The notes below the pieces were generated by a model, which worked only from the letters and a program-made list of their open reading frames with translations, did no database searches and was not told where the DNA came from. Shown piece by piece: positions 26,154 through 47,637 of a stretch of 64,000 nt of DNA; positions within the stretch are counted from its first letter, which is position 1; every line of letters starts with the position of its first letter. The DNA is from Xanthobacter aminoxidans (GTDB lineage: Bacteria; Pseudomonadota; Alphaproteobacteria; Rhizobiales; Xanthobacteraceae), in the NCBI RefSeq assembly GCF_023571765.1, contig NZ_JAMJXC010000005.1, positions 186,001 to 250,000 on the forward strand. The letters run 5' to 3'. Position numbers and translations under genes: made by a program.

Positions 26154-26223
26154 TGAGGGTAGGTGGGACGGTGGCCGATGGGAGGGGCTTGTCAGAGGGA
26201 GGGACGTGGACGCCCCCGCTCCC

Positions 26224-33286: not shown

Positions 33287-33586
33287 ATGAGCGCAGCACC
33301 CCTCACCGTCATCGCCATCATCACCGCGAAGGAGGGGCAGGAGAGCGCCCTGCGCGCGCTTCAGGAGAAGCTGGTGGTGGAGACGCACAAGGAAGATGGC
33401 TGCCTGCGCTACGAGCTGAACCAGTCGCTGGACGACGGGCGCATCCTGATCTTCGTCGAGACCTGGGAGACGGAGGCCAAGTGGCGCGCCCATATCGACG
33501 GCGCGGCGCTGGCCAATTTCGCCGCGGCCGGCGGAGGGGACCTGATCGCCGACAAGGTGATCCACCGAATGGCGAAGGTTGCCTGA
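33287..33586 (+). CDS. Putative quinol monooxygenase (ABM family)
   Basis: A 99-residue dimeric alpha-beta-barrel protein of the antibiotic biosynthesis monooxygenase family, like YgiN. The sequence follows the family: LTVIAIITAKEGQESALRALQEKL, THKEDGCLRYELNQSLDDGRILIFVETW and AHIDGAALANF. YgiN-type members oxidise quinols without cofactors, but many have no tested activity. It starts at ATG 33287. It is divergent from trxC, with about 180 bases between them that should hold both promoters. Confidence 0.87.
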   Translation: MSAAPLTVIAIITAKEGQESALRALQEKLVVETHKEDGCLRYELNQSLDDGRILIFVETWETEAKWRAHIDGAALANFAAAGGGDLIADKVIHRMAKVA

Positions 33587-33663
33587 AAAGGTGGCCTGAC
33601 GAATAAGCGCCTGCCGGCTGAAATCTCTGGACTTCCAAGGATTTGCGGCCGGTACCCCGCTGC

Positions 33664-34569
33664 TCATGGGTGGATGACGAGGCCCCACCACATCCACGCC
33701 GTGAGCATGGACAACGGCACGCCGATGCCGATGACCAGCGCCACGAGGTCCGGCTCCAGATCGTGATCCAGCGCGATGATGCTGGCGCCCAGCATGGGCG
33801 GCATGGCCATTTCCAGCATCGCCACCTGCGCGATCGGATCGCCGGTCCGTCCGAGCGCCGCATACATCAGGAAGATGGCCAGCGGCGCCAGCAGCAGCCG
33901 ATAGCCGAGCCCCACCGCCAGCGCTCCGACCCGGCCGGAAAAGCGGTCCAGTCGAAGGGCAAAGCCCACGGCCGCGAGGGCGATGGGGGTGAGCGTCTGG
34001 GCCAGCGCCTCGACCAGATGGTCGAGCCACTCCGGGCGCGGCAGATCGTTGGTGGCGAAGGCAATGAGGATGGCCCAGAAGGGCGGGAAGGTGGCGATCC
34101 GCTTCGCCACCGCCCGCCAGTCGAAATGCCCCGCGCTCGCCACGGCGGCGATGGCGAGGCCCAGCGTGGACAAGGCGAGGTAGGAGCCGAACAGGTCGAT
34201 GACGATGCCGAGCCCCAGCCACTGGCTGCCGGCGAAGGCCGCGATCATGGGCAGTCCGACGAAGGAGGTGTTGCCCCAGCCGCCCACCAGCAGCAATGCG
34301 CCCGCCCGCCGGTGCGACCAGCCGAGGGCGCGGCACAGGGGCACGATGACGAGGATGGCGAGGAGGGCGCCCATCCACGGCGTGGCCGCGGCCAGCCACC
34401 AGCTGTCATCCATCTTCAGGTGATGGACGCTCCGCAGGGCGGTGGCCGGCAGCGCGACATTGATCACCCAGCCACCGAAGGCCTTGGTGGCGGTGTCAGG
34501 CAGCCGGCCGGACCAGCGCAGCAGGACGCCGATCAGGAGGCAGGTGACGATCAAGGAAATCTCGTGCAT
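33664..34569 (-). CDS. AEC-family (auxin efflux carrier-like) permease
   Basis: A 301-residue membrane protein with about ten hydrophobic segments in two five-segment halves, the plan of the auxin efflux carrier family. Family features are GGWVINVALPATALRSV, LVGGWGNTSFVGLPMIAAFAG with the half-helix Asn/Pro, and the C-terminal AMLEMAMPPMLGASIIA. Characterised bacterial relatives move malate, malonate or similar carboxylates. It starts at ATG 34569 and ends 112 bases after the amidase on the same strand, so the two are likely co-transcribed; it may export or import the acid made by that enzyme. Confidence 0.87.
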   Translation of the reverse strand: MHEISLIVTCLLIGVLLRWSGRLPDTATKAFGGWVINVALPATALRSVHHLKMDDSWWLAAATPWMGALLAILVIVPLCRALGWSHRRAGALLLVGGWGNTSFVGLPMIAAFAGSQWLGLGIVIDLFGSYLALSTLGLAIAAVASAGHFDWRAVAKRIATFPPFWAILIAFATNDLPRPEWLDHLVEALAQTLTPIALAAVGFALRLDRFSGRVGALAVGLGYRLLLAPLAIFLMYAALGRTGDPIAQVAMLEMAMPPMLGASIIALDHDLEPDLVALVIGIGVPLSMLTAWMWWGLVIHP

Positions 34570-34681
34570 CCCGATGCCCCTCCCCCCGGCACCGCCAATC
34601 CCGGGGACAATGGCTTGGGCTTCACCGCAAGGGAATAGGCGGGGCAGTGCTATCCGCAGACGGACGCTCTGCCCGAGCCCA

Positions 34682-35860
34682 TCATCGAGCGCGAGCGACG
34701 GCGACGGCCAAGGCGAGCAGCATCTCGTCCTTGCCGCGCGGCGCCATGGCGGAGAGCCCGAGCGGGCAGCCCTCGAGCGTTGAGAGCGGCAGGGAGATCT
34801 GCGGCGTTCCGGCATGGCCGGAGAGGCACAGAAGCTCGATGGCGCGGGCGCGGAACGCCTCCAGATCGGCCAAGGGCGTGCCGCGCAGGGGCGCGATGCC
34901 GGGCGCCGTGGGCAGAAGGAGGATGCCGTCCTCTCCCAGCAGCGCATCGATCCGGGCGCGCACCTGCGCCCGCAAGGCGCGCGCCTCGGCCACTTCTGCG
35001 GGATCGAGGGTGGCGGCGGCGGCGAAGCGCTCCTTCACGCCGGGGCCGAAGTCCGGCTGCGCGGCGCGCACCCAGTCGGCATGCGCCGCCCATGCATCGG
35101 CCGATTGCAGGATGCGGAAGACATTGCGCCAGTGGGGCAGGGCGCCGTGGGCCACGTCCACGGCCTCCGCCGGACCATAAAGCGCGGTCATGCGTGCGAG
35201 GGCCGGCGCCAGCGCCGCCGTCACCTTCGGCCCGGCTGCCTCGAACAGGTCGCGGGCCAGCAGCAGCCGCGGCGCGGGGGGCACCACGGGATCGCCCAGC
35301 AGCACGGCGCCCACCTTCTCGAAGGTCTGCGCATCGCGCGCGAACCAGCCCACCGTGTCGTAGGAGGGTGCCAGCGGCACGGCGCCGGCGATGGGGATGC
35401 GCCCGTGGGTCGGCCGCAGGCCGAACAGGCCGCAATAGCTCGCGGGCAGCCGCACCGAGCCGCCGGTGTCCGAGCCGATGGCGAAATCCACCAGCCCGCC
35501 CGCCGTCGCCGCCGCGGAGCCGGAGGAGGAGCCGCCGGGAATGCGCTCCGGCGCGGCGGGGTTGATGGGCGTGCCGTAATGGTGGTTCTCGCCGTTGAGG
35601 CTCCAGGCCATCTCGTCCGTATGGGTCTTGCCCACGAGGCGCGCGCCGGCACCGAGCAGCATGTCCACGACAGGCGCATTCTCGGCCGGCACCCCATGGC
35701 TCGCCAGCCACGCCGGGCTTCCGGCCGCGGTGGGCACGCCGGCCACGTGGAACAGGTCCTTCAGCGCGAAGGTGAGGCCTTCGAGCGGCCCCGTGCTTGT
35801 GGGGGCAAGCTCGAAATGGCCATGGGAGACGAAGGCGTCGAGCGTGTCATTCACCGGCAT
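34682..35860 (-). CDS. Amidase, signature family, AMI1-like
   Basis: A 392-residue amidase with an intact Ser-cisSer-Lys triad: K34 (FALKDLF), S111 (PGGSSSGSAAA) and S135 (DTGGSVRLPASYCG). The stretches ENHHYGTPINPAAPERIPGG, LVDFAIGSDTGGSVRLPAS and SYDTVGWFARDAQTFEKVG strongly recall plant AMI1, which hydrolyses indole-3-acetamide to indole-3-acetate; this comparison is from memory. The enzyme would convert R-CONH2 to R-COOH plus ammonia in the cytoplasm. It is divergent from a LysR gene 183 bases away, and its operon partner is an AEC-type permease. A related malonamidase-type activity is the main alternative. Confidence 0.87.
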   Translation of the reverse strand: MPVNDTLDAFVSHGHFELAPTSTGPLEGLTFALKDLFHVAGVPTAAGSPAWLASHGVPAENAPVVDMLLGAGARLVGKTHTDEMAWSLNGENHHYGTPINPAAPERIPGGSSSGSAAATAGGLVDFAIGSDTGGSVRLPASYCGLFGLRPTHGRIPIAGAVPLAPSYDTVGWFARDAQTFEKVGAVLLGDPVVPPAPRLLLARDLFEAAGPKVTAALAPALARMTALYGPAEAVDVAHGALPHWRNVFRILQSADAWAAHADWVRAAQPDFGPGVKERFAAAATLDPAEVAEARALRAQVRARIDALLGEDGILLLPTAPGIAPLRGTPLADLEAFRARAIELLCLSGHAGTPQISLPLSTLEGCPLGLSAMAPRGKDEMLLALAVAVARAR

Positions 35861-36042
35861 GAGCGATCCGTGGGGCGGCGGGTGGCGAGAGGGCAGGGTG
35901 AGGCGACAAGGCTTATCCGATCCGCGCGCTCGTGTCTCCGCGTGCTCCAGTGTCTTCGCGTGCCGTGTCCTGCAACCGGGGCGGGGTTGGGCGGGGCGCC
36001 TGCTGCTGCTATCACCGGGCGGGCGCCCGAGGATCTTCAGCC

Positions 36043-36936
36043 ATGTTCAACTGGAACGACCTGATCTTCTTCCTCGAACTGGCGCGGCAGGGCCGGCTGA
36101 TGCCGGCGGCGCGGCGGCTGAAGGTGGACCACACGACGGTCTCCCGCCGCATCAGCGAGCTGGAAAAGGATCTCTCCCTCAAGCTGTTCGACCGCAAGCC
36201 CGACGGCTTCGTGCTGACCGAGCCGGGCCATCGCCTGTTCGCGGTGGCCGAGCGCATCGAGCAGGAGGCGGTGGGCGTCGAGGAGACGCTGCAGGCGGCT
36301 CCCAGCGCGCCGCGCGGGCATGTGCGCGTCGCCTCCATGGAGGGCATCGGCGCCTTCTACCTCGCCGAGCGCTTCGCCGAACTGGCGGAGAAGGAGCCGG
36401 GGCTGGTGGTGGAGCTGGTCACCGAGCGCCACCTCATCAATCTCACCAAGCGCGAGGCGGATATCTCCATCTCCTTCGTGCCGCCGCAGGGCCAGCGCCT
36501 CGCCGTGCGCCGCCTCGGAGCCTTCCGCCTCGCGCTCTATGCGGCGCCGGACTATGTGCGCCGCTTCGGCATGCCGAGGACGCGGGCGGAGCTGCCCGCC
36601 CACACCTTCGTGGACTATGTGGAGGATCTCGTCGCCATCCAGCCGGTGCATTGGCTGCTGGATGTGCTGGAGCCGCTGAAGGTGTCGTTCCGCTCCACCT
36701 CCATGCACGCCCAGCAGAATGCGGTGGCGCGCGGCGCCGGCATCGGCCTCCTGCCGCTGTTCTCGGCCAAGAGCAATCCGCGCCTCATCCCCATCCTCAC
36801 CGACGAGGTGGTGGTGATGCGCGACATCTATGTGAGCGTCCACGAGGATCTGGAATTCATGGGCCGCTTCCGCGCCGTGCTCCAGCACCTCGCCGAGGTG
36901 GTGCAGCGGGACGCGGCCTATCTGACGGAGTTTTGA
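36043..36936 (+). CDS. LysR-family transcriptional regulator
   Basis: A 297-residue LysR regulator. The DNA-binding domain is MFNWNDLIFFLELARQGRLMPAARRLKVDHTTVSRRISELEKDL, followed by a substrate-binding domain containing READISISFVPPQGQRL and GAGIGLLPLF. It starts at ATG 36043 after GAGGATC. It is divergent from the amidase-AEC pair, the classic position for a LysR activator, and its end faces the aldoxime dehydratase gene. I infer control of the amidase unit and possibly of the nitrilase operon; the ligand is unknown. Confidence 0.93.
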   Translation: MFNWNDLIFFLELARQGRLMPAARRLKVDHTTVSRRISELEKDLSLKLFDRKPDGFVLTEPGHRLFAVAERIEQEAVGVEETLQAAPSAPRGHVRVASMEGIGAFYLAERFAELAEKEPGLVVELVTERHLINLTKREADISISFVPPQGQRLAVRRLGAFRLALYAAPDYVRRFGMPRTRAELPAHTFVDYVEDLVAIQPVHWLLDVLEPLKVSFRSTSMHAQQNAVARGAGIGLLPLFSAKSNPRLIPILTDEVVVMRDIYVSVHEDLEFMGRFRAVLQHLAEVVQRDAAYLTEF

Positions 36937-36967
36937 GCCGATCGGCGGCCGCCGGGCGCCCGAACAG

Positions 36968-37080
36968 CCGTCATCCCCCGGCTTGTCCGGGGGATCCACG
37001 GAACGGCCGGGCCGGCGCTTCGCAGTTTGCGGTGGACATGCGGCCCGGTGGATGCCCCGGACAAGCCGGGGCATGACGGC
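36968..37080. repeat. Palindromic intergenic repeat, family A, copy 4
   Basis: The left half holds CCCCCGGCTTGTCCGGGGG and the right half, in reverse, GCCCCGGCTTGTCCGGGGC. It lies between the convergent LysR and aldoxime dehydratase genes, where it may also serve as a bidirectional transcript end. Confidence 0.87.
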
Positions 37081-37125
37081 TTCAGGCAGGGCGCGTCGGC
37101 TATGACGGCGCCCGCGTGAGCGCCC

Positions 37126-38175
37126 CTACACCCGCTCCCCCGGCAAGAACCCCAGCAGCCCCGTGCCCGGCGCGCAGTTCACATACTCGAACTGGTGCGT
37201 GTCGCCCTCTGGCAGAACGAACACCTCGTGCCAGGTGCGCAGCTGGTTGGCCTTGCCGTATTTGCGATAGCGGGCCATGGCGGCGGAGAAGATGGCTTCG
37301 TGGGTGGGGTGGTGCTCGGCCCAGTTCTCCAGATGGCCGAGGGAGAGGAAATAGCCCAGCGCGTGGGTCTCCAGCACCGGCACGCCGGCCGCGTCGCAGG
37401 TCTGCTGGAAGCGCAGGGAGGCGCAGCCGGATGCTTCGCCATTCTCTTTCAGGAAGTCCATGCCCTTGAGCAGCGGTTCGCGCAGCTCGCGCATGTAGTT
37501 CTCCGCCTGCTCGGGATCGCAGCGGCCCCAGAAGGCGGCGGAGCGGATGACCGCGAAATTGTGCGGAATGGCGAGCCGCCAGCGAGCGCCCTTCGTCTCA
37601 CGCTCCACCTGCACCAGCGCGGGGACAGGGCTTTCCAGCGTGTCGGCGGCGGCCAGCGGAATGCGGTCGCGCATGGCGCCGTAATAGCCGCACCACGGCG
37701 TGGGATAGAGCGCCACATCCGGCGCGGCTGAGAGGCCGCCGGCATAGTCCTGCCAGTAGATGCTCTCCTGCCGCTCCACCGGCACGGTCATGCTCTCGCG
37801 GAAATAGCCGGTGGGTTCGCTGAGGCGGGCGGCGTCCTCCCACCAGCCGGCGACGACCGGGTCGGCAAGAAAGCGGTCGCGCTTGGCCTCATCCAGCCAG
37901 TAGGCGGCAAGGATGTGGGTATAGAGCCCGTTCGGGTCCACGAAGGCGGCATGGTCGCTGACGGTCGGGCCGTCCTGCAGGGCCAGCGCCTTTTCGATCC
38001 AGCCGAAGAAGGGGGAGGCGTGGACCTCCTCCGCGCTCCGCCCCTGCACGCCGTGGAAGGCGACGCAGAGCGCGCGGCAGTTGTTGGCGAAGGCGGTGGA
38101 CCAGCGCTGCACGACGGGCTCGAAGCCCTTTGGTTTGCGCAGGGGATGGACGCGGTCATAGACGGGCATGGCCAT
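37126..38175 (-). CDS. oxd: Haem aldoxime dehydratase
   Basis: A 349-residue enzyme of the aldoxime dehydratase family, which removes water from R-CH=NOH to give the nitrile R-CN by binding the oxime nitrogen directly to ferrous haem. From memory of OxdRE (Arg178, Ser219, proximal His299, distal His320), the matching residues are R171 (GAMRDRIPL), S212 (VIRSAAFW), H271 (LETHALGYF) and H292 (HPTH); the two His keep the 21-residue spacing. PWCGYYGAMRDRIPLA, KGMDFLKENGEASGC and WHEVFVLPEGDTHQFEYVN are further family blocks. I start at ATG 38175 with AGAGG upstream. It is the last gene of the nitrilase-Liv operon, 91 bases after livF. Confidence 0.92.
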   Translation of the reverse strand: MAMPVYDRVHPLRKPKGFEPVVQRWSTAFANNCRALCVAFHGVQGRSAEEVHASPFFGWIEKALALQDGPTVSDHAAFVDPNGLYTHILAAYWLDEAKRDRFLADPVVAGWWEDAARLSEPTGYFRESMTVPVERQESIYWQDYAGGLSAAPDVALYPTPWCGYYGAMRDRIPLAAADTLESPVPALVQVERETKGARWRLAIPHNFAVIRSAAFWGRCDPEQAENYMRELREPLLKGMDFLKENGEASGCASLRFQQTCDAAGVPVLETHALGYFLSLGHLENWAEHHPTHEAIFSAAMARYRKYGKANQLRTWHEVFVLPEGDTHQFEYVNCAPGTGLLGFLPGERV

Positions 38176-38266
38176 GGGTCGTTTTCCTCTTTTGCCATCG
38201 GCCTCGGTCTTCGACCGATGCCAAGTCGGCCCGCTCATGCGCCGCGCGGGCTAATTGTGATCTGGT

Positions 38267-39013
38267 TCAATGAACGCCGAAATAGGCCTTGTGCAGCTCC
38301 CCATCGGCGGCGAGCGCCGCGCTGGTGCCTGATGCGACGACGCGGCCCTGGGCCAGCACATAGCCGTCATCTGCCACATCCAGCGTCTGCCGCACGTTCT
38401 GCTCCACAAGGAGGATGGTGTAGCCCTCCTCCTTGAGCTGCCGCACGATGCGGAACACCTCCGAGACGAACAGCGGCGACAGGCCGAGGGAGGGCTCGTC
38501 GAAGACGATCAGCTCGGGATCGGTCATCAGCCCGCGGGCGATGGAGAGCATGGAGCGCTCGCCGCCCGAGAGGGTGCCGGCGAGCTGGTTGCGCCGCTCC
38601 TTCAGCCGCGGGAAGGTCTCGAACATGCGCTCCATGCGCGCGGCGAGGCGGTGGCGGTCCTTCTCGAGCAGGCCGCCGACTTTCAGGTTTTCCAGCACGG
38701 TCATGCGCGGCAGCACGCGGTTGCCCTCTGGCACGGTGGCGATGCCCAGCGCGGCGATGCGGTGGGTGGCGAGGTTGGTGATGGTGTCGCCGCCGAACGC
38801 CACCGATCCGCGCCGCACCGGCGTCAGCCCGAGGATGGAGCGGATGAGGGTGGATTTGCCCGCCCCGTTGGCGCCGAGGATGCAGGTGATGCGGCCCGGC
38901 TTCGCCTCGATGGAGACGTCGTGCAGCACGTCCGCCCGATCATAGCCGGTGGTGACGCCGGAGACGGAGAGGCGGCGGGAGGCTTCGGGACGGGGAGCTT
39001 CGGTCCGGCTCAT
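38267..39013 (-). CDS. Branched-chain-type ABC transporter ATPase LivF
   Basis: A 248-residue ATPase of the LivF type. Walker A is GANGAGKST, the signature TLSGGERSMLSIARGL, Walker B LIVFDEPSLGLSP, followed by VEQNVRQ. The start overlaps the livG stop as ATGA. It is the fifth transporter gene of a unit beginning with the nitrilase. The HAAT family imports amino acids, amides and related molecules; the flanking enzymes suggest a nitrile, aldoxime or amide substrate. Confidence 0.93.
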   Translation of the reverse strand: MSRTEAPRPEASRRLSVSGVTTGYDRADVLHDVSIEAKPGRITCILGANGAGKSTLIRSILGLTPVRRGSVAFGGDTITNLATHRIAALGIATVPEGNRVLPRMTVLENLKVGGLLEKDRHRLAARMERMFETFPRLKERRNQLAGTLSGGERSMLSIARGLMTDPELIVFDEPSLGLSPLFVSEVFRIVRQLKEEGYTILLVEQNVRQTLDVADDGYVLAQGRVVASGTSAALAADGELHKAYFGVH

Positions 39014-39786
39014 TGCGCACCTCCGAGATAGGCGGTCTGCACCTCGCGGTCGGCGATGAGGGCATCGAACGGCCCCTCGAAGATCTTCCTGCCGAAGTTG
39101 AGCACGATGCAGCGGTCGGAGATGCGGCGGATGACGTCCATCTCATGCTCCACGAGGACGATGGCGAGGTCCGGCATCTCCTCCCGGAAGGCGAGGAGGT
39201 CGTCCATCAGCGCCCGCGTCTCCTCATGGGTCATGCCGGCGGAGGGCTCGTCCAGCAAGAGGAGGCGCGGGGAGCCGACGAGGGCGCGGCAGATCTCGAT
39301 GCGCCGCCGGTCGATCATGGTGAAGCTGCCGGCCGGCTTGAACAGATTGGCCGCGATCTGCGGGTTGAAGCGGCGGGTGAGGGCTGTCGCCCGTTCCACC
39401 AGCTCGGACAGCTGGCGGCGGAAGCGGCCGCGCAGCACGAGGGCGGAGAGTAGGCTGAGGTCGAGCCGCCCGAGCGCGCCCAGCGCGATGTTGTCGAACA
39501 CCGTCTGGTCCAGCATCAGGCGCGAGCGCTGGAAGGTGCGGGCGACGCCGGCCCGGCCGATCTCCTGCGCCGAGCGGGCGAACAGGTCCTGCTCGGCGAG
39601 CTGCACCGCCCCGGCGGAGGGCTTGTAGAGGCCGGTGAGCACGTTGAAGAAGGTGGTCTTGCCCGAGCCGTTCGGCCCGACGAGGCCGATGGTCTCGCCC
39701 TTGCCGACGCGGATGTCGAGGGCGTCCAGCGCCGTCAGGCCGCCGAAGCGCATGGTGAGGCCGGAGCAGGCGAGCAGCGGGCTCAT
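39010..39786 (-). CDS. Branched-chain-type ABC transporter ATPase LivG
   Basis: A 258-residue LivG-type ATPase with GPNGSGKTTFFNVLTGLYKP as Walker A region, ARTFQRSRL in the Q-loop zone, LLLLDEPSAGMTHEE as Walker B and the VEHEMDVI switch. The signature position reads TMIDRRRIEICRAL, where the typical form is LSYGQQRRLEIARAL, so the LSGGQ motif is degenerate here. The start overlaps livM and the end overlaps livF, both by four bases. Confidence 0.92.
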   Translation of the reverse strand: MSPLLACSGLTMRFGGLTALDALDIRVGKGETIGLVGPNGSGKTTFFNVLTGLYKPSAGAVQLAEQDLFARSAQEIGRAGVARTFQRSRLMLDQTVFDNIALGALGRLDLSLLSALVLRGRFRRQLSELVERATALTRRFNPQIAANLFKPAGSFTMIDRRRIEICRALVGSPRLLLLDEPSAGMTHEETRALMDDLLAFREEMPDLAIVLVEHEMDVIRRISDRCIVLNFGRKIFEGPFDALIADREVQTAYLGGAQ

Positions 39787-40982
39787 TTCGCCCCTCCCTT
39801 CACGAGCGCGGAGAAATCGCGCGCCGCGCGCGGCATGAGGCCGGACGGGCGGAAGCGCAGGATGGCGATAACCAGCAGGGCGAAGATGACGAGGCGGAAT
39901 TCCTGGATCGCCTGCAGTTTCTCCGGAATGACGAGGATGACCACCGCCGCCACCACAGCGCCCCACAGATTGCCGAGCCCGCCCAGCACGAGGATGGACA
40001 GCATGATGAGGCTGTCGCCGAAATTGGCGCTGTTGGGATTCACGAAGCCGTTCATCATCCCGTAGAGGGCGCCGGCGACACCGATCATGGCGTTGCCGAG
40101 CAGGAAGGCGGTGGCCTTCCAGCGGGCGATGGAAAGGCCGAACACGCTGGCCGCCACCTCGTCCGAGCGCACCGCATCGAGCGCCACGCCCACGAACGAG
40201 GTCTCCAGCCGCCGCACCAGGAAGAAGGCGAGGCCGAACAGGGCGCAGGAGGCGAGCGCATAGGGCAGATAGAAGGAGACGTCGTAGGGCCCGATCTCGG
40301 TCATCCGGCTGAAGTCGAGGCCGAACAAAGAGAAGGATTTCACCTTCATGCCCTGCGGGCCGCCCAGCACGTCGTTCACCTCTAGGAAGGCGCGCAGCAA
40401 GAGGCCGAAGGCGATGGTGACGAGGGCGGCATAGTGGCCGCGCGTGCGCAGCACCGGCAGCAGCAGGACGAGCCCCAGCACCGCCGCCGCGAGGCCGGCG
40501 ATGAGCAGGACGAGAAGGTGCGGGATGCCCGTATTCCCCAAGAGAGCTGCCACATAGGCGCCCACCGCGAAGAAGGCGGCGCCGGCGAAATTGGGCACGC
40601 CCGCAAAGGCCATCTGCAAGGTGAGGCCCGCGGCGGCAGTGGCGAAGAGGGCGACCGTTGCCATCATCAGCAGCGTGTAATGCTCCTCGCGCAGCGCGGC
40701 GGCGATGGCGAGGATGCTCACGGCGGCGGTGAGGTTCACCGTGCCGGGATGGGCGCGGCAGAGGCCGACGATGCGTCGGCCCACGGGCACTTTCTCGGCC
40801 AGCGCGAACACCGCGACGAAGGCGGCGAGCAGCGCGATCACCTGGCCCTGCTGTTCGGCATGGAGCAGGAAGCCGCCGCCGGCGAACAGGAGGGCCACGG
40901 TGGCAGCCACGGCAAGGCGCGCGAGGCCGCCGCTGCGGGCCGTCTGCGCGGGAACGGAGGGGGCAAGGTCCGCCATGCTCAT
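39783..40982 (-). CDS. Branched-chain-type ABC transporter permease LivM
   Basis: A 399-residue permease, longer than LivH as usual, with about eleven hydrophobic segments. Family blocks include GLTLQMAFAGVPNFAGAAFFAVGAY (in which NFAGAAFF replaces the more usual LSLGHAAF) and LDAVRSDEVAASVFGLSIARWKATAFLLGNAMIGVAGALYG. An ATG at 40976 is an alternative start. It follows livH with only one base between its ATG and the livH stop. Confidence 0.9.
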   Translation of the reverse strand: MSMADLAPSVPAQTARSGGLARLAVAATVALLFAGGGFLLHAEQQGQVIALLAAFVAVFALAEKVPVGRRIVGLCRAHPGTVNLTAAVSILAIAAALREEHYTLLMMATVALFATAAAGLTLQMAFAGVPNFAGAAFFAVGAYVAALLGNTGIPHLLVLLIAGLAAAVLGLVLLLPVLRTRGHYAALVTIAFGLLLRAFLEVNDVLGGPQGMKVKSFSLFGLDFSRMTEIGPYDVSFYLPYALASCALFGLAFFLVRRLETSFVGVALDAVRSDEVAASVFGLSIARWKATAFLLGNAMIGVAGALYGMMNGFVNPNSANFGDSLIMLSILVLGGLGNLWGAVVAAVVILVIPEKLQAIQEFRLVIFALLVIAILRFRPSGLMPRAARDFSALVKGGAK

Positions 40983-40983
40983 C

Positions 40984-41904
40984 TCACACCCGCTCGCTGG
41001 ATTTCTCGGCGATGAGGCCGGTGGGGAACAGGCCGATGAGGGCGATGATGACGGCGAAGGCCACCACGTCCTTGTAGGCGCTGGTGAAGGGCAGCACGAC
41101 GGTGACGAGGGTCTGCACGCCCGCGAACAGGAAGCCGCCGATGATCGGCCCGATGAGGCTGCCAAGGCCGCCCACCACCGCGCAGGCAAAGCCGATGATG
41201 CCCAGCATGACGCCCATGTTGAAGTTGATCTCCCGGTAGTAGAGCCCGAGCATCAGCCCCGCGAGGCCAGCGAGCATCGATCCCAGAGCGAAGGTGCCGA
41301 GCACGGTGCGGTTGAAGCTGACGCCCGCGAGCTGCGCCACCTCCTCGTCCTGCGCCACCGCGCGGATGGAAAGGCCAAGGCGGGTGCGGGTGATGACGAG
41401 ATGGGTCGCCAGCACCACCGCGAGGCCGGCGAGGAGGATGATGACGCTGTCGATGCCGACGCTGAACGATCCCGCCTTCAGCACCCCCTCCGGCAGCAGG
41501 GCCGGGAAGGGCTTGGGATTGCCGCCGTTGGGCACGCCGAGGCGGATGGCCTCGCGCAGCACGGTGCCGGCCATGAGGGTGGCGAGCAGCACGTTCACGC
41601 CCGGCGCGTTCTTCAGCGGCAGCACCAAAAGCCGGCCGATGATGACGCCGGAGAGCGCGCCCGCCCCGAGCGCCGCGATGAGCCCCACCGCCAGCGCCAG
41701 CGGGCCGGAGAGGGTGGCGAGCGCCGCCATTAGCCCCGCCGCCCCGAAGGCGGAGAAGGCGCCCACCGTCACCACGTCGCCGTGGGAGAACTTGATCACG
41801 TCCAGCACGCCGAAGAACAGCGAGAAGCCGACCGCGACGATGGCGTAGATGGTGCCGAGCATCAGCCCGTTGAACAGGTACTGGGCGAGAAGTCCGGGGT
41901 CCAT
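40984..41904 (-). CDS. Branched-chain-type ABC transporter permease LivH
   Basis: A 306-residue permease with eight or so membrane segments. LFNGLMLGTIYAIVAVGFSLFFGVLDVIKFSHGDVVTVGAF at the N-terminus and SIRAVAQDEEVAQLAGVSFNRTV plus GLGSLIGPIIGGFLFAGVQ are standard LivH features. It starts at ATG 41904. A 265-base gap separates it from livK; most of that gap is the family B repeat at 41989-42161. Confidence 0.93.
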   Translation of the reverse strand: MDPGLLAQYLFNGLMLGTIYAIVAVGFSLFFGVLDVIKFSHGDVVTVGAFSAFGAAGLMAALATLSGPLALAVGLIAALGAGALSGVIIGRLLVLPLKNAPGVNVLLATLMAGTVLREAIRLGVPNGGNPKPFPALLPEGVLKAGSFSVGIDSVIILLAGLAVVLATHLVITRTRLGLSIRAVAQDEEVAQLAGVSFNRTVLGTFALGSMLAGLAGLMLGLYYREINFNMGVMLGIIGFACAVVGGLGSLIGPIIGGFLFAGVQTLVTVVLPFTSAYKDVVAFAVIIALIGLFPTGLIAEKSSERV

Positions 41905-41988
41905 GGCGGGTCTCTCAAGGGGAGCACAGGCCGGCGCGCTGCAAGAAGGGCGCCGGGGGATTTTCTGATCGGGGCACCACCCTCGCGC

Positions 41989-42161
41989 CTCGGCCGACTG
42001 GAACGGAGCGCAGCGCCGTGGAAGGAGAGCCGTGGCCCAGCGCGTCACGTCGCCGAAGGCGGCTCCATTCCCCGCACCGCGGGGTGTTGCCGGCTTCGCC
42101 GACGTTTCCCCTGGACCCCGGATCGGCGCTCCACCTGCGGTGTCGCTGGTCCGGGGCACAG
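41989..42161. repeat. Intergenic repeat, family B, copy 2
   Basis: About 173 bases related to 21198-21360. Shared blocks include GGAGAGCCG, TCGCCGAAGGCGGCTC, TTGCCGGCTTCGCCG and a 3' part from CCCGGATCGGCGCTCCACCT to GTCGCTGGTCCGGG with complementary ends. It sits between livK and livH inside the nitrilase operon. Confidence 0.75.
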
Positions 42162-42169
42162 GGAGGGCG

Positions 42170-43363
42170 TCAGTTGCTCGCTGCCTTCCCCGGCAGCTTC
42201 TTGGTGCCCGTCGCATAGGCACTGTCGGGCCAGTAGACCCACTTGCCGTCCTGCGAGACATAGACGTTGGCGGAGACGATGTTCTGCCGGTGGTCGTCGA
42301 AATTGATCTCGCCCACCAGCGCCTTGTAGCCCTTGGTGGTGTTGAGGATGTCGCGCACCTTCTTGCGGTCCGGGCCGGCCTTCTCGATGGCGTCCATGAT
42401 GAGGTTGGCGGCGGAGAAGGCGAACGGGCCGTAGGCGTCCGGGTCCTCGCGATAGCCGGCCTTGGCATAGGCGTCCATGAAGGCCTTGCCGTCGGCATAC
42501 TTGGTCAGCGGCGCGCCGTTGTGGAACGAGACGGTGCCCTCGGCCGCCGGGCCGGCGCCCTCGATGAAGCCGGCGCTCATGATGCCGGAGACGCCGGCAA
42601 GCTGCGCCGGGATGCCGAGCCGGTCCATCTGCGAGCGCACGCGCACGCCGAGCGGGGTGAGCCCGCCGATGAACACCACGTCCGGCTTCAGCTCCTTCAC
42701 CTTGGTGAGTTCGGCGGTGAAGTCCTGCTGGTCCGGCGGCACCGGGAAGGTGGCGAGGATTTCGCCGCCCTGGGGCTTCAGATTCTCTGCGAAATACTTG
42801 TTCTGGCCCTTGCCGTAATCGGTGGTGTCGTGGATGACGACGAAGGTCTTGAAGCCCTGCTTGGTGAGGAACTCCGCGGCCATCTTTCCTTCATTGATCA
42901 TCGTGCCGTTGACGCGGTGGATTTCCTTGTAGTCGTTGCCGTAGGTGATCTCCGGCAGCACTGCGCCCCACACCACCACCGGCAGGCCGAAGCGGTTGTA
43001 GGTGTCCACCGTCGCGATGGCCACCGCCGAGCAGTAGTGGGTGATGCCGGCGATGATGGACTTGTCGGAGGCCGCCTTGGTGGCCACCTGAACGCCCACG
43101 TTCGGCTTGCATTCGTCGTCAAACGGCACGAGCTCGTAGGTGTATTTGGCGTCGGGCTTGGCGTTGTGCAGGTCCACGGCCAGCGACGCGGAATTGCGGC
43201 CGCCGAGGCCGGTGGCGGAATTGCCGCCGGTGAGCGGGCCGATGAAGGCGATCTTCACCGTGTCGCGGGCCAGCGCGGGCGCCGTCGCCAGCGACAGTGC
43301 GGCGAGCGCCGCGCCCGCGACATTGAGCAGTTTTCGGCGGGCAAGCATTTGATCCGTTGCCAT
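42170..43363 (-). CDS. ABC transporter substrate-binding protein, LivK-type
   Basis: A 397-residue periplasmic binding protein of the Leu/Ile/Val-binding (peripla_BP_6) type. The signal RRKLLNVAGAALAALSLATAPALA carries twin Arg but no full Tat motif. The mature part starts RDTVKIAFIGPLTGGNSATG, with the ligand zone around DDECKPNVGVQVATKAASD and ITHYCSAVAIATVDTYNRFGLP; the usual family residues SGT/TSA that bind the amino acid backbone are replaced here by THYCSA, hinting at an unusual ligand. It starts at ATG 43363 after GAGGATC. It is second in the operon, 77 bases after the nitrilase gene. Confidence 0.92.
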   Translation of the reverse strand: MATDQMLARRKLLNVAGAALAALSLATAPALARDTVKIAFIGPLTGGNSATGLGGRNSASLAVDLHNAKPDAKYTYELVPFDDECKPNVGVQVATKAASDKSIIAGITHYCSAVAIATVDTYNRFGLPVVVWGAVLPEITYGNDYKEIHRVNGTMINEGKMAAEFLTKQGFKTFVVIHDTTDYGKGQNKYFAENLKPQGGEILATFPVPPDQQDFTAELTKVKELKPDVVFIGGLTPLGVRVRSQMDRLGIPAQLAGVSGIMSAGFIEGAGPAAEGTVSFHNGAPLTKYADGKAFMDAYAKAGYREDPDAYGPFAFSAANLIMDAIEKAGPDRKKVRDILNTTKGYKALVGEINFDDHRQNIVSANVYVSQDGKWVYWPDSAYATGTKKLPGKAASN

Positions 43364-43439
43364 GTGATGATCCTCTGGAAGGGTTTGTTCTGGTGAGGCC
43401 GTACGGCGCCGGTCGTTGCCGGCCCCGGTCGAGGAAAAA

Positions 43440-44498
43440 TCAGGCCGCGCCATCGGCGAAGAGCATGTCCGCCGTGGGGTCGAGCGCCCCGTCCTCGGCG
43501 GCGCGGGCGATAGCCGCGCCTTCGGAGAAATAGGCCGGCTCGCGGGCGGAGCGGTCCACCTCCAGGTGGAACACGTCGAAGCGGTTGTAATAGCCCACCA
43601 CGTCATGGAACTGCTTGGGCTCCACGCAGCGGGCGGTATCGATCTCGGCGTAGAGGATGCCTTCGTGCTCGCCCAGCACCTCGCCCACCACCTGCGAGGT
43701 GGGATCGAGCACCATGGAGATGCCACGCGGGGAATTGTCCATCACGTCGAGGCTCGCCTTCCCCATGCTGCCCATGGCCTCGCGCATGGCGGCATCGACG
43801 AAGCCGGAGGCGACGATGTTGAACACCTTGGCCTCGAAGGCATGAGCGCCGGCGCGGATCTCTATGGCGCGCTTCAGGTCATAGGCGCCATCCTCCTCCG
43901 GGGGACGGGTCGGCCAGATCGGCGGATAGGAGGAGATGTGCACCTGCTCCCCCTGCGCCATCAGGGCATAGCGCGCGAGGGGATTGGTGTTCTCTCCGCA
44001 GATCAGCATGCCGACCCGGCCGATCTCGGTGGCGGTGACGCGCAGGCCGCGCGCGTCGCCGTTCGCCCACACCAGCTTCTCGTAGAAGGTGGGGACGAGC
44101 TTCCGGTGGTGGTTGAGGATCGCGCCGTCCGGCCCGATCAGCACGTTGGAATTCCAGATGCAGCCGACGCTCGCGTCGGTGCCCTCGGTGAAGCCGAGGG
44201 AGACGTGCACGCCATGCCGGCGCGCCGCCATGCGGATGGTGCGGATGGCGCCGTCCGAGAGCTTCTGCGCCTCAGCAACCAGCGCGCGGAAGAAGCCGTG
44301 ATTGTAGATAGGCGCCTGCAGCGCCGCCCACACCGGAAAGCCCGGCAGGAAGGATTCCGGGAACACCACCAGCGCGGCGCCGTTGGCGGCGGCCTCGGCG
44401 ATGAGGTCGCAGGCCTTCTCGGCGGTCTTGTCCGCATCGAGGAAGACGGACGAGGCGTGGCAGGCGGCGGCCTTGAAGCGGGGATATTGGACGGTCAT
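43440..44498 (-). CDS. Nitrilase
   Basis: A 352-residue nitrilase of the CN-hydrolase superfamily, branch 1, hydrolysing R-CN to R-COOH plus ammonia. The triad is E48 (VVFPESFLPGFP), K133 (NHHRKLVPTFYEKLVW) and C167 (MLICGENTNPLARYALMA); the extra Glu at E140 is also in place. The CGENTNPLARY block is that of true nitrilases and not amidases or carbamylases. I start at ATG 44498; its ribosome site is weak (GAAGAG). It is the first gene of a run of seven minus-strand genes ending with the aldoxime dehydratase, which produces nitriles. Substrate type, aromatic, arylacetic or aliphatic, cannot be read from the sequence. Confidence 0.93.
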   Translation of the reverse strand: MTVQYPRFKAAACHASSVFLDADKTAEKACDLIAEAAANGAALVVFPESFLPGFPVWAALQAPIYNHGFFRALVAEAQKLSDGAIRTIRMAARRHGVHVSLGFTEGTDASVGCIWNSNVLIGPDGAILNHHRKLVPTFYEKLVWANGDARGLRVTATEIGRVGMLICGENTNPLARYALMAQGEQVHISSYPPIWPTRPPEEDGAYDLKRAIEIRAGAHAFEAKVFNIVASGFVDAAMREAMGSMGKASLDVMDNSPRGISMVLDPTSQVVGEVLGEHEGILYAEIDTARCVEPKQFHDVVGYYNRFDVFHLEVDRSAREPAYFSEGAAIARAAEDGALDPTADMLFADGAA

Positions 44499-44902
44499 CG
44501 GGCTCTTCTGCCAGTGGGGCGGCGGTGGGTACGCCGGCTCATGATGGCGTGGTGTCCCGTGCGCGGAAGGGCGCAAATGTGCAGGGGCACTTGCGCATAT
44601 TCCTATGCGGCAGGTGTGGGCGCGGTTCCCGGACCGGTGCCGGGGGTGCTTTGCCTCGACAGGGCGCAATTGCCCGGCTGCGCGCCGCCTGCGGATGAGG
44701 CGCGGTGCGCAAAGGATGGCCTTCGGGCCGACCATCGCCCTCTTTGCGCACCGCGCCTTGCACGATTTCCGATGGCGCGGCGAGGTTCGGGGGCGGCCAA
44801 TATCCGCGTGGCGCGGCCAAGCGCCCCGCCTTCGCCCATTGCCTTGCGGGAAGCGGCGAAGAATGATCCTTGCGAAAAATGAGCGCGTCGCCGGTTCGGG
44901 CT
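44499..44902. other. Divergent spacer between nitrilase operon and ECF sigma gene
   Basis: About 400 bases without a supported gene. It should hold the nitrilase operon promoter; I see no convincing sigma-70 or sigma-54 match on that strand. The chief feature is the long perfect inverted repeat at 44698-44758. Confidence 0.45.
44698..44758. repeat. Seventeen-base perfect inverted repeat
   Basis: Arms AGGCGCGGTGCGCAAAG (44698-44714) and its exact complement (44742-44758) enclose 27 bases that contain a second nested dyad, GATGG to CCATC. The whole can fold into one long hairpin in RNA from either strand. No T-run follows, so it is not an ordinary terminator. Confidence 0.85.
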
Positions 44903-44928
44903 GTAACGTTCGGATGGGTGCATGCGAA
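44903..44928 (+). promoter_or_regulatory. Candidate ECF-type promoter of the sigma/NrsF pair
   Basis: GTAACG and CGAA are separated by 16 bases, very close to the GTAACC-N16-CGAA pattern I know for Caulobacter SigF, whose gene is also followed by nrsF. The start would fall about 14 bases before the sigma gene ATG. It suggests autoregulation. Confidence 0.65.
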
Positions 44929-44949
44929 CTGACCCTCGGGAACGTGTAG

Positions 44950-45495
44950 ATGGACGACCGCGAACTGCGGTGGGCGCAATTGATGCGGAGCGCGCTTGCC
45001 GGCGATGGCGCGGCCTATGAGCACTTGCTCCGTGAGCTGGCGCCCGCGCTGCGCATGGTGGTCCAGCGCCGCCTTGTCCGCCTTGGCGCGCCCACGGCGG
45101 AGACGGAGGACATTGTGCAAGAGACCCTGCTGGCGGTGCATCTGAAGCGGCACACCTGGCGCACCGAGGACCCCCTCGGGCCCTGGCTTTGGACCATCGC
45201 CCGCAACAAGATGGTGGACCATCTGCGCCGCCGGGGGCGGCGGGTGGAGGTGCCGGTGGAGGATTTCGCCGAATTCCTCCCGGCGCCGGAGGAGCGGCCC
45301 GACACCGGGGCCATGGAGGTGGAACAGCACCTGGCCCTGCTGCCGCAGAAGCAGCAGGCGGTGCTGCGCTCGGTGGCGGTGGAGGGCGCCTCCGTCGCCG
45401 AGACGGCGGAGCGGATGCGCATGACGCCCGGCGCGGTGCGCGTGGCGCTGCATCGCGCCTTTGCGAGCCTTTCGGCCCGCCTGAGGGAGGAGTGA
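44950..45495 (+). CDS. ECF RNA polymerase sigma factor, SigF-like
   Basis: A 181-residue ECF sigma factor. Region 2 is YEHLLRELAPALRMVVQRRLVRL ... DIVQETLLAVHLKRHTWRTEDPLGPWLWTIARNKMVDHLRRRGRR, and region 4 is HLALLPQKQQAVLRSVAVEGASVAETAERMRMTPGAVRVALHRAFASL. It starts at ATG 44950 and is followed nine bases later by an NrsF-type gene, the cognate membrane anti-sigma factor. The pair resembles Caulobacter SigF-NrsF, which responds to heavy metals and oxidants. Which genes it controls here is unknown; the copper group 4 kb away is a guess. Confidence 0.93.
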   Translation: MDDRELRWAQLMRSALAGDGAAYEHLLRELAPALRMVVQRRLVRLGAPTAETEDIVQETLLAVHLKRHTWRTEDPLGPWLWTIARNKMVDHLRRRGRRVEVPVEDFAEFLPAPEERPDTGAMEVEQHLALLPQKQQAVLRSVAVEGASVAETAERMRMTPGAVRVALHRAFASLSARLREE

Positions 45496-45504
45496 AGGAA
45501 CGAC

Positions 45505-46140
45505 GTGAAGACCGATGACCTCATACGCGCCCTCGCCGCCGACGCGCGGCCGGTGCGCAGCTTCAGGAGCACGCTGGCGCTGGCGCTTGTCGTCGGCGTC
45601 GTGGCGGCGGCGTGCGTCTTCGCCCTGCGTCTTTCGCCGCGGCCGCATCTTCTGACGCAACTGGTGGAATGGCGCCTCGCCTTCAAGTTCGCGGTGACGC
45701 TCACGCTCGCCGCATCGGCGGTGGTGCTGGCGCTGCGCCTGTCGCAACCCGGCGCGCCGGTGGGACGGGCAGCGCGGGCCCTGCTGGTGCCGGCCCTCCT
45801 GCTTGCGGCGGGTGTTGCGTCCGAGCTGGTGACGACGCCCGCGAGCCAGTGGCGGCACGAACTCGTCGGCCGTTACGCCATCTATTGCACGACGCTCATT
45901 CCGATGATCGCCGCCCCGGCATTGGGCGCGCTCCTGCTCGCCCTGCGGCGCGGCGCCCCCACCCACCCGACGCTGGCCGGCGCCGCCGCGGGCCTCGCTG
46001 CGGGCGGCATCGGCGCCGCGCTTTACGCCCTCCATTGCGTGGACGATTCCCCGCTGTTCGTCCTCGCCTGGTACAGCATCGCGGTGGCGGTGGTGACGGC
46101 GGTGGGCGCGCTCGTGGGTAGCCGATTGCTGCGCTGGTAG
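45505..46140 (+). CDS. nrsF: NrsF-family membrane anti-sigma factor (DUF1109)
   Basis: A 211-residue inner-membrane protein with six hydrophobic segments after a short cytoplasmic N-terminus MKTDDLIRALAADARPVR. The WRHELVGRYAIYCTTLIPMIAAPALGALLLALRRGAP and AALYALHCVDDSPLFVLAWYSIAVAVV blocks, each with a Cys, match NrsF/DUF1109; those two Cys are the redox or metal-sensing residues proposed for the family. It starts at GTG 45505, with AAGGA upstream, and is coupled to the sigma gene. It holds the sigma factor inactive at the membrane until a signal arrives. Confidence 0.93.
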   Translation: MKTDDLIRALAADARPVRSFRSTLALALVVGVVAAACVFALRLSPRPHLLTQLVEWRLAFKFAVTLTLAASAVVLALRLSQPGAPVGRAARALLVPALLLAAGVASELVTTPASQWRHELVGRYAIYCTTLIPMIAAPALGALLLALRRGAPTHPTLAGAAAGLAAGGIGAALYALHCVDDSPLFVLAWYSIAVAVVTAVGALVGSRLLRW

Positions 46141-46313
46141 GGCAGGGGCTCCGGTTCCCGCGCCGCCGTTGCCGCGGGTTGCGAGCGGGCGGCTCTTCGG
46201 CGGCCGGCGCCGCCGCCCGTCACTGTTGCCCTTTGGTCGCTTGCCGGCTCCGTCTTCCGCCTGCCGTTCCGTCACCGCCTAGACCGCGCCACGGCGCTTA
46301 GCTACCCCTAATT

Positions 46314-46337
46314 GCAACTCTGGTCAGGGAGAGTTGC
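46314..46337 (+). promoter_or_regulatory. Hairpin enclosing the ribosome site of the adhesin-like gene
   Basis: GCAACTC (46314-46320) and GAGTTGC (46331-46337) are exact complements. The ten-base loop and inner stem hold AGGGAGAG, the probable ribosome site of the gene starting at 46342. Folding would partly hide it. Confidence 0.5.
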
Positions 46338-46341
46338 GGTC

Positions 46342-47637
46342 ATGGCGGCGAAGGCGAAAACCGGCTTCAGCGGGCTCGATAGGAGCAAGACGCTGGCGGA
46401 GAACACGGTGAATGCGGGTCCGGTGGTGCTGGATTCGAATGTGACGTTTACGGCGTCATCGCCTGATATTTTCACCCAAGGATACTTTCTTGTCGATGTT
46501 GCCAATTTTGGTGGGAATGACCATTTCTACCTTAAAGAGGGTGGGGGGATAAAGGTCGTTTACGGACAAGACTTTGGATCTGTTTATTATAATGATGTGC
46601 TGGTCGGAACAGTCACGTCAGGCGGTCCGTACATATCGGTCACTCTTGAGCCGAACGTAACAGCAGAATCTATGACCGCTATGGCGAGGGCGGCGAGGGC
46701 GGTGTCATATTACTACGATGGCGACGCGCCCTCAGCGTTCGGTCGCGTCGTCACTTATAGAGTTTTAAACTCGTCCGGCGCGGATACCTCAGCCACCATG
46801 CTGCTCAAGCTGAAGCCTGAGAATGACCTGCCCGTGTTCTCCGGCCTCGACGCCCAGTCGGTCCATTCCGCCTCGCAGGCGACTGCCGGTGTGGTCATCG
46901 ACGCCGACGTCCATGTCGCCAACCCCGACCTCACCGGCTTCAAGGGCGGCAAGCTCGCAGTCCATCTCGCCGGCGCGACCGCGACCGATCAGCTTTATCT
47001 GTCGGATGGGCATTTCAGCATCACCTGCAAGAAGCTCTATCTCGATGGAAAGCAGGTCGGCACGGTCTCGGCCGATGGACACAACGGGCACGACCTCGCC
47101 TTCACCTTCTCCGCCGCCATTTCCGATGCGCAGGCGAGCCAACTCGCCGAGCAGGTCTCCTATCGCTCCACCGCCGCCTCCGCCCCGAGCGGCGCGCGGG
47201 ACGTGACCTTCACCGTCACCGACGCCGAGAAGAGTTCGACGAGCGCGCATGTCGCGCTGGGTTTCGAAGCGGACGCTCCGACCCTTCTCTCCGCCAATGC
47301 CATGGTCTCCGACCCCTTCGCGACCCTGAAGGCGGCCGCGTCGGGCGCGCCGGACGATCTCTCCGCCGTGTTCGCCACGCTGGAGGCGCGGGCGGCGGGG
47401 TTGCTGGAGGCGGCGTCGCACGCCCATGGGGCGCTCGCCATGGATCACCTGCCGGACCTCCATCTGCCGGCGGCGGTCGCCGACTATCTCGAGGCCATCG
47501 GTTCATCCATTCTCGACCATGCGCAGTCGGCGCATCCCGCGCTGGTGCACGAGCTGTCCGACCGGGCGGCGGCGCTGGCGGCGCATGTGCATGACGTGCT
47601 TCATCCCGTGCACGGGAGCGCGGACGCGCTGATCTGA
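46342..47637 (+). CDS. Adhesin-like repeat protein of unknown function
   Basis: A 431-residue protein with two diverged copies of an immunoglobulin-like repeat. The copies, about residues 20-155 and 165-305, both have a pattern like DxxVxFxxxNPDLxxxKGGxLxVxxAGxxxxDxLYLxxG, VYYNDVLVGTV or LYLDGKQVGTVSADG, and a final YRVLN or SGARDVTFTVTDAE. Such repeats are found in large alphaproteobacterial surface adhesins. The last 110 residues are helical and rich in His (HAHGALAMDHLPDLHLP, HVHDVLHPVHG). There is no signal peptide and no RTX Ca-binding repeats, so any secretion would be by type I or another route. Codons of the first repeat are noticeably AT-richer than the rest. It starts at ATG 46342. 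Confidence 0.75.
   Translation: MAAKAKTGFSGLDRSKTLAENTVNAGPVVLDSNVTFTASSPDIFTQGYFLVDVANFGGNDHFYLKEGGGIKVVYGQDFGSVYYNDVLVGTVTSGGPYISVTLEPNVTAESMTAMARAARAVSYYYDGDAPSAFGRVVTYRVLNSSGADTSATMLLKLKPENDLPVFSGLDAQSVHSASQATAGVVIDADVHVANPDLTGFKGGKLAVHLAGATATDQLYLSDGHFSITCKKLYLDGKQVGTVSADGHNGHDLAFTFSAAISDAQASQLAEQVSYRSTAASAPSGARDVTFTVTDAEKSSTSAHVALGFEADAPTLLSANAMVSDPFATLKAAASGAPDDLSAVFATLEARAAGLLEAASHAHGALAMDHLPDLHLPAAVADYLEAIGSSILDHAQSAHPALVHELSDRAAALAAHVHDVLHPVHGSADALI

Follow-up and report, generated by a model that had tools for sequence, protein, structure and literature searches.

The 64,000-nucleotide stretch of Xanthobacter aminoxidans DNA analysed here (hereafter the window; contig NZ_JAMJXC010000005.1, positions 186,001 to 250,000) carries on its minus strand a run of seven genes that encode a nitrilase, the five subunits of a Liv-type ATP-binding cassette (ABC) importer and an aldoxime dehydratase (Oxd). 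Comparison across genera gives good support to an eight-gene unit made up of this run, with its importer, and a LysR-type regulator gene. With moderate confidence, we read it as a LysR-controlled unit for the import and hydrolysis of a small organic nitrogen compound. The binding protein LivK and the Liv-type (HAAT family) importer would take up the compound, Oxd, a heme enzyme, would dehydrate an aldoxime to the nitrile, the nitrilase would hydrolyse the nitrile to an acid and ammonia and the LysR-type protein would control the unit. We infer that the importer carries Oxd's own aldoxime rather than a nitrile or another compound, that the operon genes are transcribed as a single message and that the unit serves nitrogen supply, the last because no acid-degrading gene recurs with the core in the mapped loci. 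The sequence evidence for an import unit comprises recurrence in at least six gene orders, linkage of LivK to Oxd, a shared upstream dyad, exchange of the importer in related Oxd loci and the V135 and S259 substitutions in LivK.

An importer of the window's Liv type and an Oxd are found together in 17 genomes or plasmids (A-type loci) of Xanthobacter, Aquabacter, Bradyrhizobium, Azorhizobium, Methylorubrum, Methylobacterium and others. Each genome was counted once (the window, L034–L039, L042, L049–L052 and L054–L058); L059 was omitted as resembling L058, and L045–L048 were taken to be the same genomes as G001, G088, G063 and G019. Among 150 relatives, the Oxd family PF13816 matched in 18 (22 matches) and, where contigs allowed, about 9 kb on each side was read for 20 of the 22, omitting the window's own match and a stub in G060; window-type LivKHMGF, Oxd and nitrilase occur in G001, G003, G019, G063, G088, G078 and G083. 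With the Oxd alignment as query, 84,980 species genomes yielded 12 loci, all with a window-type nitrilase, 11 with all five Liv genes and 11 with the LysR ortholog (at least 67% identity). Nine Bradyrhizobium plasmid records matched at 66–73%, and the three that were read all carry LivKHMGF–oxd, with the nitrilase in one. The stretch read contains a nitrilase gene in 16 of the 17 A-type loci (in L052 at a distance of about 6 kb; L058 has none). The LysR gene is part of the conserved set, being present at 44% identity or more in 14 of the 17; L035, L057 and L058 have none at that identity, and a different LysR gene lies beside oxd in L058.

Gene order varies among the A-type loci, with at least six arrangements. 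The set may open with the nitrilase gene, or open with livK and end with nitrilase and LysR; LysR may stand between livK and a divergently oriented nitrilase gene (L034); LysR–nitrilase may be divergent from livK (L054), as may nitrilase–LysR (L055); and LysR–nitrilase–livKHMGF may have oxd on the other strand (L056). Outside the core, just two families recur in two loci of different genera (L037/L049; L058/L073, aldehyde dehydrogenase) and none in more, in a count for which the gene caller performs poorly on some loci, e.g. L035, L058 and L060. A first-pass annotation, made from the window sequence alone, had proposed an importer dedicated to the unit and pointed to conservation of the neighbourhood as a check; the recurrence of the eight-gene set across genera in so many orders supports that proposal. 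The LysR gene, the upstream dyad and the changes of importer class in related loci go beyond what that annotation described.

LivK and Oxd are linked in the genome samples examined. Among the 150 relatives, LivK matches of at least 73% identity lie beside Oxd in eight of eight cases, and sister LivKs of 57–62% identity in none of nine; eight of the nine sister genomes have no Oxd match at all, and the Oxd of the ninth (G078) sits with its other LivK. Three more matches in the relatives have 36–37% identity. The A-type LivKs form a clade of their own (100/98, 12 rows). A sample of 397 genomes of the order added six sisters (58–64%), one of which (G184, L073) is accompanied by oxd, nitrilase and LysR (45%) genes. 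This pairing of importer and Oxd may be a separate joining, because the L073 LivK pairs with the non-Oxd sister L063 in the LivK tree (100/99). The G184 cluster adjoins a nitrogenase-type gene (PF00148) and small neighbours that resemble other nif genes by eye (L073:15250–18991).

The host genome (5.82 Mb) has a single Oxd and 58 Liv-type binding proteins, and up to ~16% of it lies within 9 kb of one of the latter. A single neighbourhood is thus weak evidence in so crowded a genome, and cross-genus conservation carries the case. A Liv operon could have come to lie next to an Oxd–nitrilase pair by chance, as this abundance would allow; orthologous linkage through at least six gene orders, the shared dyad and reciprocal occurrence argue against it, Oxd identities of 51–96% speak against a single recent transfer, and we regard the probability of mere proximity as negligible.

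The dyad CGCA-N8-TGCG occurs exactly, within the 320 nucleotides (nt) that precede the first importer or enzyme gene, at 11 of 17 loci (the window, L034, L036, L037, L038, L052, L055, L056, L057, L058 and L073) versus 13 of 453 control upstream regions, a comparison between related loci for a motif that was chosen after the list of dyads had been seen. These 17 differ from the A-type loci by one exchange: L073 stands in for L039, the contig of which ends close by. The dyad precedes nitrilase, livK or oxd, whichever heads the run; in L034, L056 and L073 it sits in the gap after lysR, and the first gene in L073 is oxd. For L034 and L073, the gene whose upstream region held the dyad was taken as the first gene and the second run of each was set aside. 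Five loci (L035, L042 and L049–L051) have the dyad with one mismatch only, which says little since 26% of controls do so too, and L054 has none. In total, 24 regions were tested, and the seven beyond the first-gene regions gave no exact match; inside genes around the clusters the dyad appears once each in L034, L058 and L073. The list comprised half-sites of 4–5 bases with spacers of 3–9 in 68 upstream regions, and CGCA-N8-TGCG ranked second by loci (11 loci, 12 regions); TGCT-N5-AGCA, present at the most loci (12 loci, 14 regions), was set aside as lying mostly upstream of genes inside runs. The LysR-type protein probably controls the unit through the CGCA-N8-TGCG dyad, which would be its binding site.

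Both enzymes retain their active-site residues. The nitrilase triad E48–K133–C167, read as intact in the first-pass annotation, is confirmed by alignment, and together with a fourth residue, E140, it is invariant in 48 of 48 aligned nitrilases. The Oxd residues were placed by alignment to solved OxdA and OxdB chains: R171, S212, H292 and H316 (numbered from the ATG at 38175) align with R178, S219, H299 and H320 of OxdA (3w08). We take H299 of OxdA to be the heme-ligand histidine and H320 to be the catalytic histidine, and by these counterparts H292 is the predicted heme ligand and H316 the predicted catalytic residue. The earlier assignment had listed R171, S212, H271 and H292; H271 has to be replaced by H316 and the other three stand. 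H271 is not an active-site position, because it is never His in the 33 Oxds outside the window's clade (Tyr in 18, Phe in 12, other residues in three). Over 63 Oxds, R171 is conserved in 63, S212 in 60, H292 in 62 and H316 in 59. Real departures are H316 to Asn in L040 and L041, S212 to Glu with H316 to Val in L080, S212 to Thr in L097 and S212 to Gly in L103; gaps at H292 and H316 in L096 stem from the sequence piece used. In L096, a Halomonas plasmid, the Oxd gene is split over two frames (L096:9001–10016), and its chromosomal relative L136 is open throughout. The closest Oxd among the matches listed is that of Xanthobacter sp. YC-JY1 (Xanthobacteraceae; 96% identity). The window Oxd scores 207.2 against a cut-off of 600 for the NCBIfam aliphatic OxdA equivalog NF050090, and the nitrilase 196.3 against 502.6 for the Nit6803 equivalog TIGR04048.

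In the Oxd tree (63 rows), where long branches (L062, L079, L080, L097 and L103 among them) make deep placements unsure, the window belongs to a clade of 30 rows (99/98), and an importer is present in 29 of these 30 loci. By labels assigned by hand (L096 as a symporter and, outside the clade, L080 as a sugar-type ABC importer), the importer is of the window's Liv type in 17, the L073 sister in one, a second Liv lineage in seven (L023, L025, L026, L028, L029, L032 and L033), a third Liv lineage in one (Ochrobactrum L060), of NitT/TauT type in two (L040 and L041; PF09084 and PF00528 in the L040 copy) and a sodium:solute symporter in one (L096), the gene of which (PF00474) overlaps the nitrilase gene. 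Six of the second-lineage loci have two binding proteins; L028 and L032 are clipped by contig ends, so that the importer is partly visible. Among the remaining 33 rows a contiguous importer occurs in three: it is of Liv type in L062 and L098 and of the sugar type in L080. In L030, L061, L079, L082, L097, L099, L101, L104 and L105, genes or gene fragments of ABC type lie within 9 kb, either non-contiguous with oxd on its strand or unassigned. All ten Oxd loci of genus g25, which consist of oxd and nitrilase, lack a Liv match (E value 1e-5) over roughly 9 kb. With its 48 rows, the nitrilase tree groups the A-type, L073, NitT/TauT-type and L053 loci in one clade (20 rows) and the second-lineage, symporter and L060 loci in another (8 rows), apart from the rest (20 rows).

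Judged from the LivK tree, Liv operons have been joined to Oxd more than once, because the second- and third-lineage LivKs fall outside the window's LivK group. The nitrile-hydratase cluster of Agrobacterium tumefaciens AF1/95 has a Liv operon between its oxd and amidase genes (L098:8950–18981); the operon is not at that place in the related clusters of A. vitis F2/5, a Rhizobium, a Rahnella and a Pantoea, and the Liv-type genes of A. vitis F2/5 lie some kb upstream of the cluster on the other strand. That the importer has been exchanged repeatedly suggests selection on uptake as well as on catalysis. A broader proposal, which we put forward only tentatively, is that the whole Oxd clade is coupled to transport: its aldoximes would be polar and membrane-impermeant, and an importer would have been kept while its class changed (three Liv lineages, a NitT/TauT-type ABC importer and a sodium symporter). 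If true, this would imply that soil or the surroundings of roots contain a pool of polar aldoximes that has escaped notice.

Several other arrangements were seen in the Oxd loci. Two loci of the window's genus have nitrilase, NitT/TauT-type ABC importer, Oxd and TauE-like genes in line (L040:8191–14673 and L041:4295–10674). In L080 (2036–9912), one strand carries the genes of a sugar-type ABC importer, upstream of a gene that encodes two nitrilase domains, and a gene for an Oxd-like product that lacks two active-site residues. Short fragments resembling the L098 LivK lie between amidase and nitrile hydratase genes at L082:13148–13334 and are perhaps the remnant of an importer. On plasmids of Bradyrhizobium and Aminobacter, chemoreceptor genes lie close to those for the importer and Oxd (L058:14258–15940 and L062:13469–15616) and perhaps serve chemotaxis to the same compound.

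The subunit set of a Liv/HAAT importer is complete by Pfam in the window, with a binding protein, two BPD_transp_2 permeases and two ABC ATPases; among the matches listed (the best 25 for the ATPases), none of the five subunits reaches a Liv or Urt NCBIfam cut-off. The AlphaFold model of LivK has a pLDDT (predicted local distance difference test score) of 84.9, and its best Foldseek match is 3td9 (E = 3.0e-27). The predicted fold allows many ligands, since the 50 best solved matches include Liv-type proteins that bind leucine, γ-aminobutyric acid (GABA)/alanine, urea and aromatic acids. In the leucine-binding protein of Escherichia coli we take S79, T102 and E226 to be leucine-binding residues. 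The window LivK does not retain this set: S112 preserves S79, and V135 and S259 stand in place of T102 and E226, which suggests a pocket poorly suited to an ordinary amino acid. The motif THYCSA (LivK residues 108–113), offered in the first-pass annotation as a mark of an unusual ligand, was rejected as a ligand signature: it aligns with GHLCSS of the E. coli protein, the binding-site serine is retained and the motif or a near form is common to sister LivKs that are not beside Oxd.

A number of observations weigh against an import unit built around the aldoxime of Oxd. A Burkholderiales metagenome-assembled genome (L053) has oxd and nitrilase with no importer in about 9 kb, and the stretch read of two Bradyrhizobium plasmids (L058 and L059) contains importer and oxd genes but no nitrilase gene. 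In wider samples, 398 genomes of the phylum included 13 with an Oxd match, and 385 of the class included four; eight new loci, all outside the Oxd tree and mostly of other Oxd types, were read, and only one has a contiguous importer. This is L136 (symporter–nitrilase–oxd); L142 has a Liv operon 2.6 kb off on the other strand, and no importer query matched next to oxd in the other six. The Oxds encoded with NitT/TauT-type importers (L040 and L041) carry Asn in place of the catalytic His. The changes at V135 and S259 occur in like form (Val or Ile, and Ser) in sister LivKs away from Oxd, some of which have sarcosine oxidase genes as neighbours. The chief evidence against a ligand restricted to aldoximes comes from a nitrilase search of 111 relatives, which gave 21 matches in 17 genomes, seven at Oxd loci and 14 at loci with no Oxd in the stretch read. 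Importer genes adjoin seven of these 14: in five (L147–L150 and L152) a complete Liv operon from a different lineage is adjacent or within two genes, and two (L157 and L158) have NitT/TauT-type importer genes on the same strand.

These seven loci weaken the argument that the importer tracks Oxd and that its ligand is hence an aldoxime, and they leave room for a nitrile ligand. The importer might then carry a nitrile, or nitriles might be the main food, with Oxd as an accessory entry for the matching aldoxime. The seven Oxd-less loci, whose nitrilases are of the same clade, argue for this. The Liv operons there are of another lineage, however, and none has a match to the A-type LivK; the latter lies beside Oxd in every one of its occurrences in the 150 relatives, and L058 and L059 carry importer and Oxd genes but no nitrilase gene in the stretch read. 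We consider a nitrile ligand rather unlikely on this evidence. A second alternative is that the importer takes another nitrogen compound, e.g. a methylated amine or amino acid, and shares with the enzymes only a nitrogen-scavenging control. It draws on five sister LivKs (57–60%; L070, L071 and L075–L077) that adjoin sarcosine oxidase, serine dehydratase or serine hydroxymethyltransferase (SHMT) genes (Pfam on representatives) and show like pocket substitutions. The A-type LivKs, however, form their separate clade and occur only with Oxd in the 150 relatives, sarcosine-type genes do not recur in A-type loci and unrelated importers replace the A-type one in related Oxd loci, which makes this alternative improbable.

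Several of the host genera are plant associates, which would suit an auxin-making module that converts imported indole-3-acetaldoxime to indole-3-acetic acid. The indole-3-acetonitrile route runs through Oxd and nitrilase (PMC8955678). Against such a module, no indole-specific gene recurs in the mapped loci (judged by eye), and conservation of the unit does not extend to the downstream genes for an auxin efflux carrier (AEC)-family protein and an amidase. The auxin-precursor role raised in the first-pass annotation thus finds nothing in the conserved gene set that points to indole compounds, and we hold it to be very improbable. The two downstream genes (33664–35860) encode an amidase (NF006169 above cut-off; divergent from the LysR gene) and an AEC-family carrier. 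Both were rejected as members of the unit: among the mapped loci the amidase gene is kept only in G001 and G003, of the same genus, and the AEC gene only in G001.

The coordinates of the unit are collected in Table 1. The seven-gene order, strand and span agree with those originally described, as does the tight packing from livH to livF: in transcript order from nitrilase to Oxd, the intergenic gaps are 76, 265, 1, −4, −4 and 91 nt. The last gap would be 28 nt with an Oxd start at 38238; the start at 38175 is preferred because it is preceded by an AAGAGGA stretch and its Met is kept in eight of eight alignment rows. All seven operon proteins exceed their Pfam family cut-offs.

Table 1. Features of the eight-gene unit in the window
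Feature	Position	Strand	Evidence
Nitrilase (NIT-A clade), 352 amino acids	43440–44498	−	PF00795, 134.9 bits (cut-off 23.2); E48, K133, E140, C167
LivK-like periplasmic binding protein, 397 amino acids	42170–43363	−	PF13458, 162.7 bits (cut-off 31.7); predicted fold matches Liv-type binding proteins
LivH-like permease, 306 amino acids	40984–41904	−	PF02653, 156.5 bits (cut-off 26.8)
LivM-like permease, 399 amino acids	39783–40982	−	PF02653, 109.1 bits (cut-off 26.8)
LivG-like ATPase, 258 amino acids	39010–39786	−	PF00005, 85.9 bits (cut-off 25)
LivF-like ATPase, 248 amino acids	38267–39013	−	PF00005, 101 bits (cut-off 25)
Aldoxime dehydratase (Oxd), 349 amino acids from ATG at 38175	37126–38175 (longest frame: start 38238)	−	PF13816, 241.9 bits (cut-off 25) on 370-amino-acid frame; R171, S212, H292, H316
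LysR-type regulator, convergent to operon, eighth conserved member	36043–36936	+	PF00126 and PF03466 on 36034–36936
Dyad CGCA-N8-TGCG, candidate regulator site	44594–44609	.	~95 nt upstream of nitrilase

An Rfam scan of positions 33000–46500 gave no match above gathering scores, and a scan of 36900–45000 for σ70-type promoters found none. Terminator candidates in the latter interval numbered six versus 3.1 in shuffles, with only one on the operon strand, inside livM. The RNA fold of the livK–livH gap is not unusual (z = −0.82); this gap contains a dispersed repeat (42119–42153), a second copy of which (about 154 nt, 80% identity) lies at 21206–21355 (including 21319–21353). A long imperfect palindrome (36966–37081) directly downstream of oxd has a related copy at 26038–26155. 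A perfect 17-nt inverted repeat with a 27-nt loop (44698–44758) is located between the nitrilase gene and a gene for an extracytoplasmic function (ECF) sigma factor, and the same stretch as the latter gene contains a 441-amino-acid open frame (46312–47637) with no Pfam match at E = 0.001.

Aldoxime dehydratases have largely been studied as biocatalysts, and a conserved binding protein offers a direct handle on their natural substrate, via ligand screening; the regulator and its dyad could be used as a sensor. We know of no aldoxime-binding protein, and LivK would be the first if its ligand is an aldoxime. The part played by Oxd in plant–bacteria interactions was called underexplored in a 2022 review, in the text available to us (PMC8955678).

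According to the same portion of that review, oxd lies beside nitrilase or nitrile hydratase genes and a regulator gene in Bacillus OxB-1, Bradyrhizobium LTSPM299, Pseudomonas chlororaphis B23 and Rhodococcus erythropolis N-771 (PMC8955678). The window has oxd–nitrilase clustering and a regulator in common with these aldoxime–nitrile pathway clusters and belongs to their class by gene content. It differs in that its conserved set includes a five-gene ABC importer and a LysR ortholog, whereas the legend to Figure 4 of PMC8955678, which omits some flanking genes, names no importer. The words 'transporter', 'uptake' and 'permease' are absent from the available text of PMC8955678 and PMC11568032, and that of PMC12462448, PMC6941271, PMC8567248 and PMC3137637 describes no importer in an Oxd cluster. 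An importer within such a unit, suspected in the first-pass annotation to be undescribed, is thus missing from the literature searched, which mostly excludes subscription papers and does not prove its absence. The window Oxd also belongs to a different clade from the plain oxd–nitrilase pairs of genus g25. The cyanate system cynABD–cynS (cyn cluster in the part seen of PMC8567248) likewise encodes an ABC importer with an ammonia-freeing enzyme, but differs from the window unit in substrate, enzymes and transporter family. With LivKHMGF and UrtABCDE the window importer shares its subunit set, Pfam families and predicted LivK fold, and it differs from leucine-type Liv binding proteins in having V135 and S259 where they have Thr102 and Glu226. 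The Oxd–amidase–nitrile hydratase clusters of Rahnella, Pantoea and Rhizobium, like the window unit, include a gene annotated as a transporter; its product is a single Phenol_MetA_deg polypeptide (PF13557; Pfam on the A. tumefaciens copy), presumably an outer-membrane protein and not an ABC importer, and the A. vitis F2/5 'transporter' is not homologous to the AEC-family carrier. Set beside these systems, the enzymes of the window unit are of known kinds, and its new part is the built-in, repeatedly exchanged importer.

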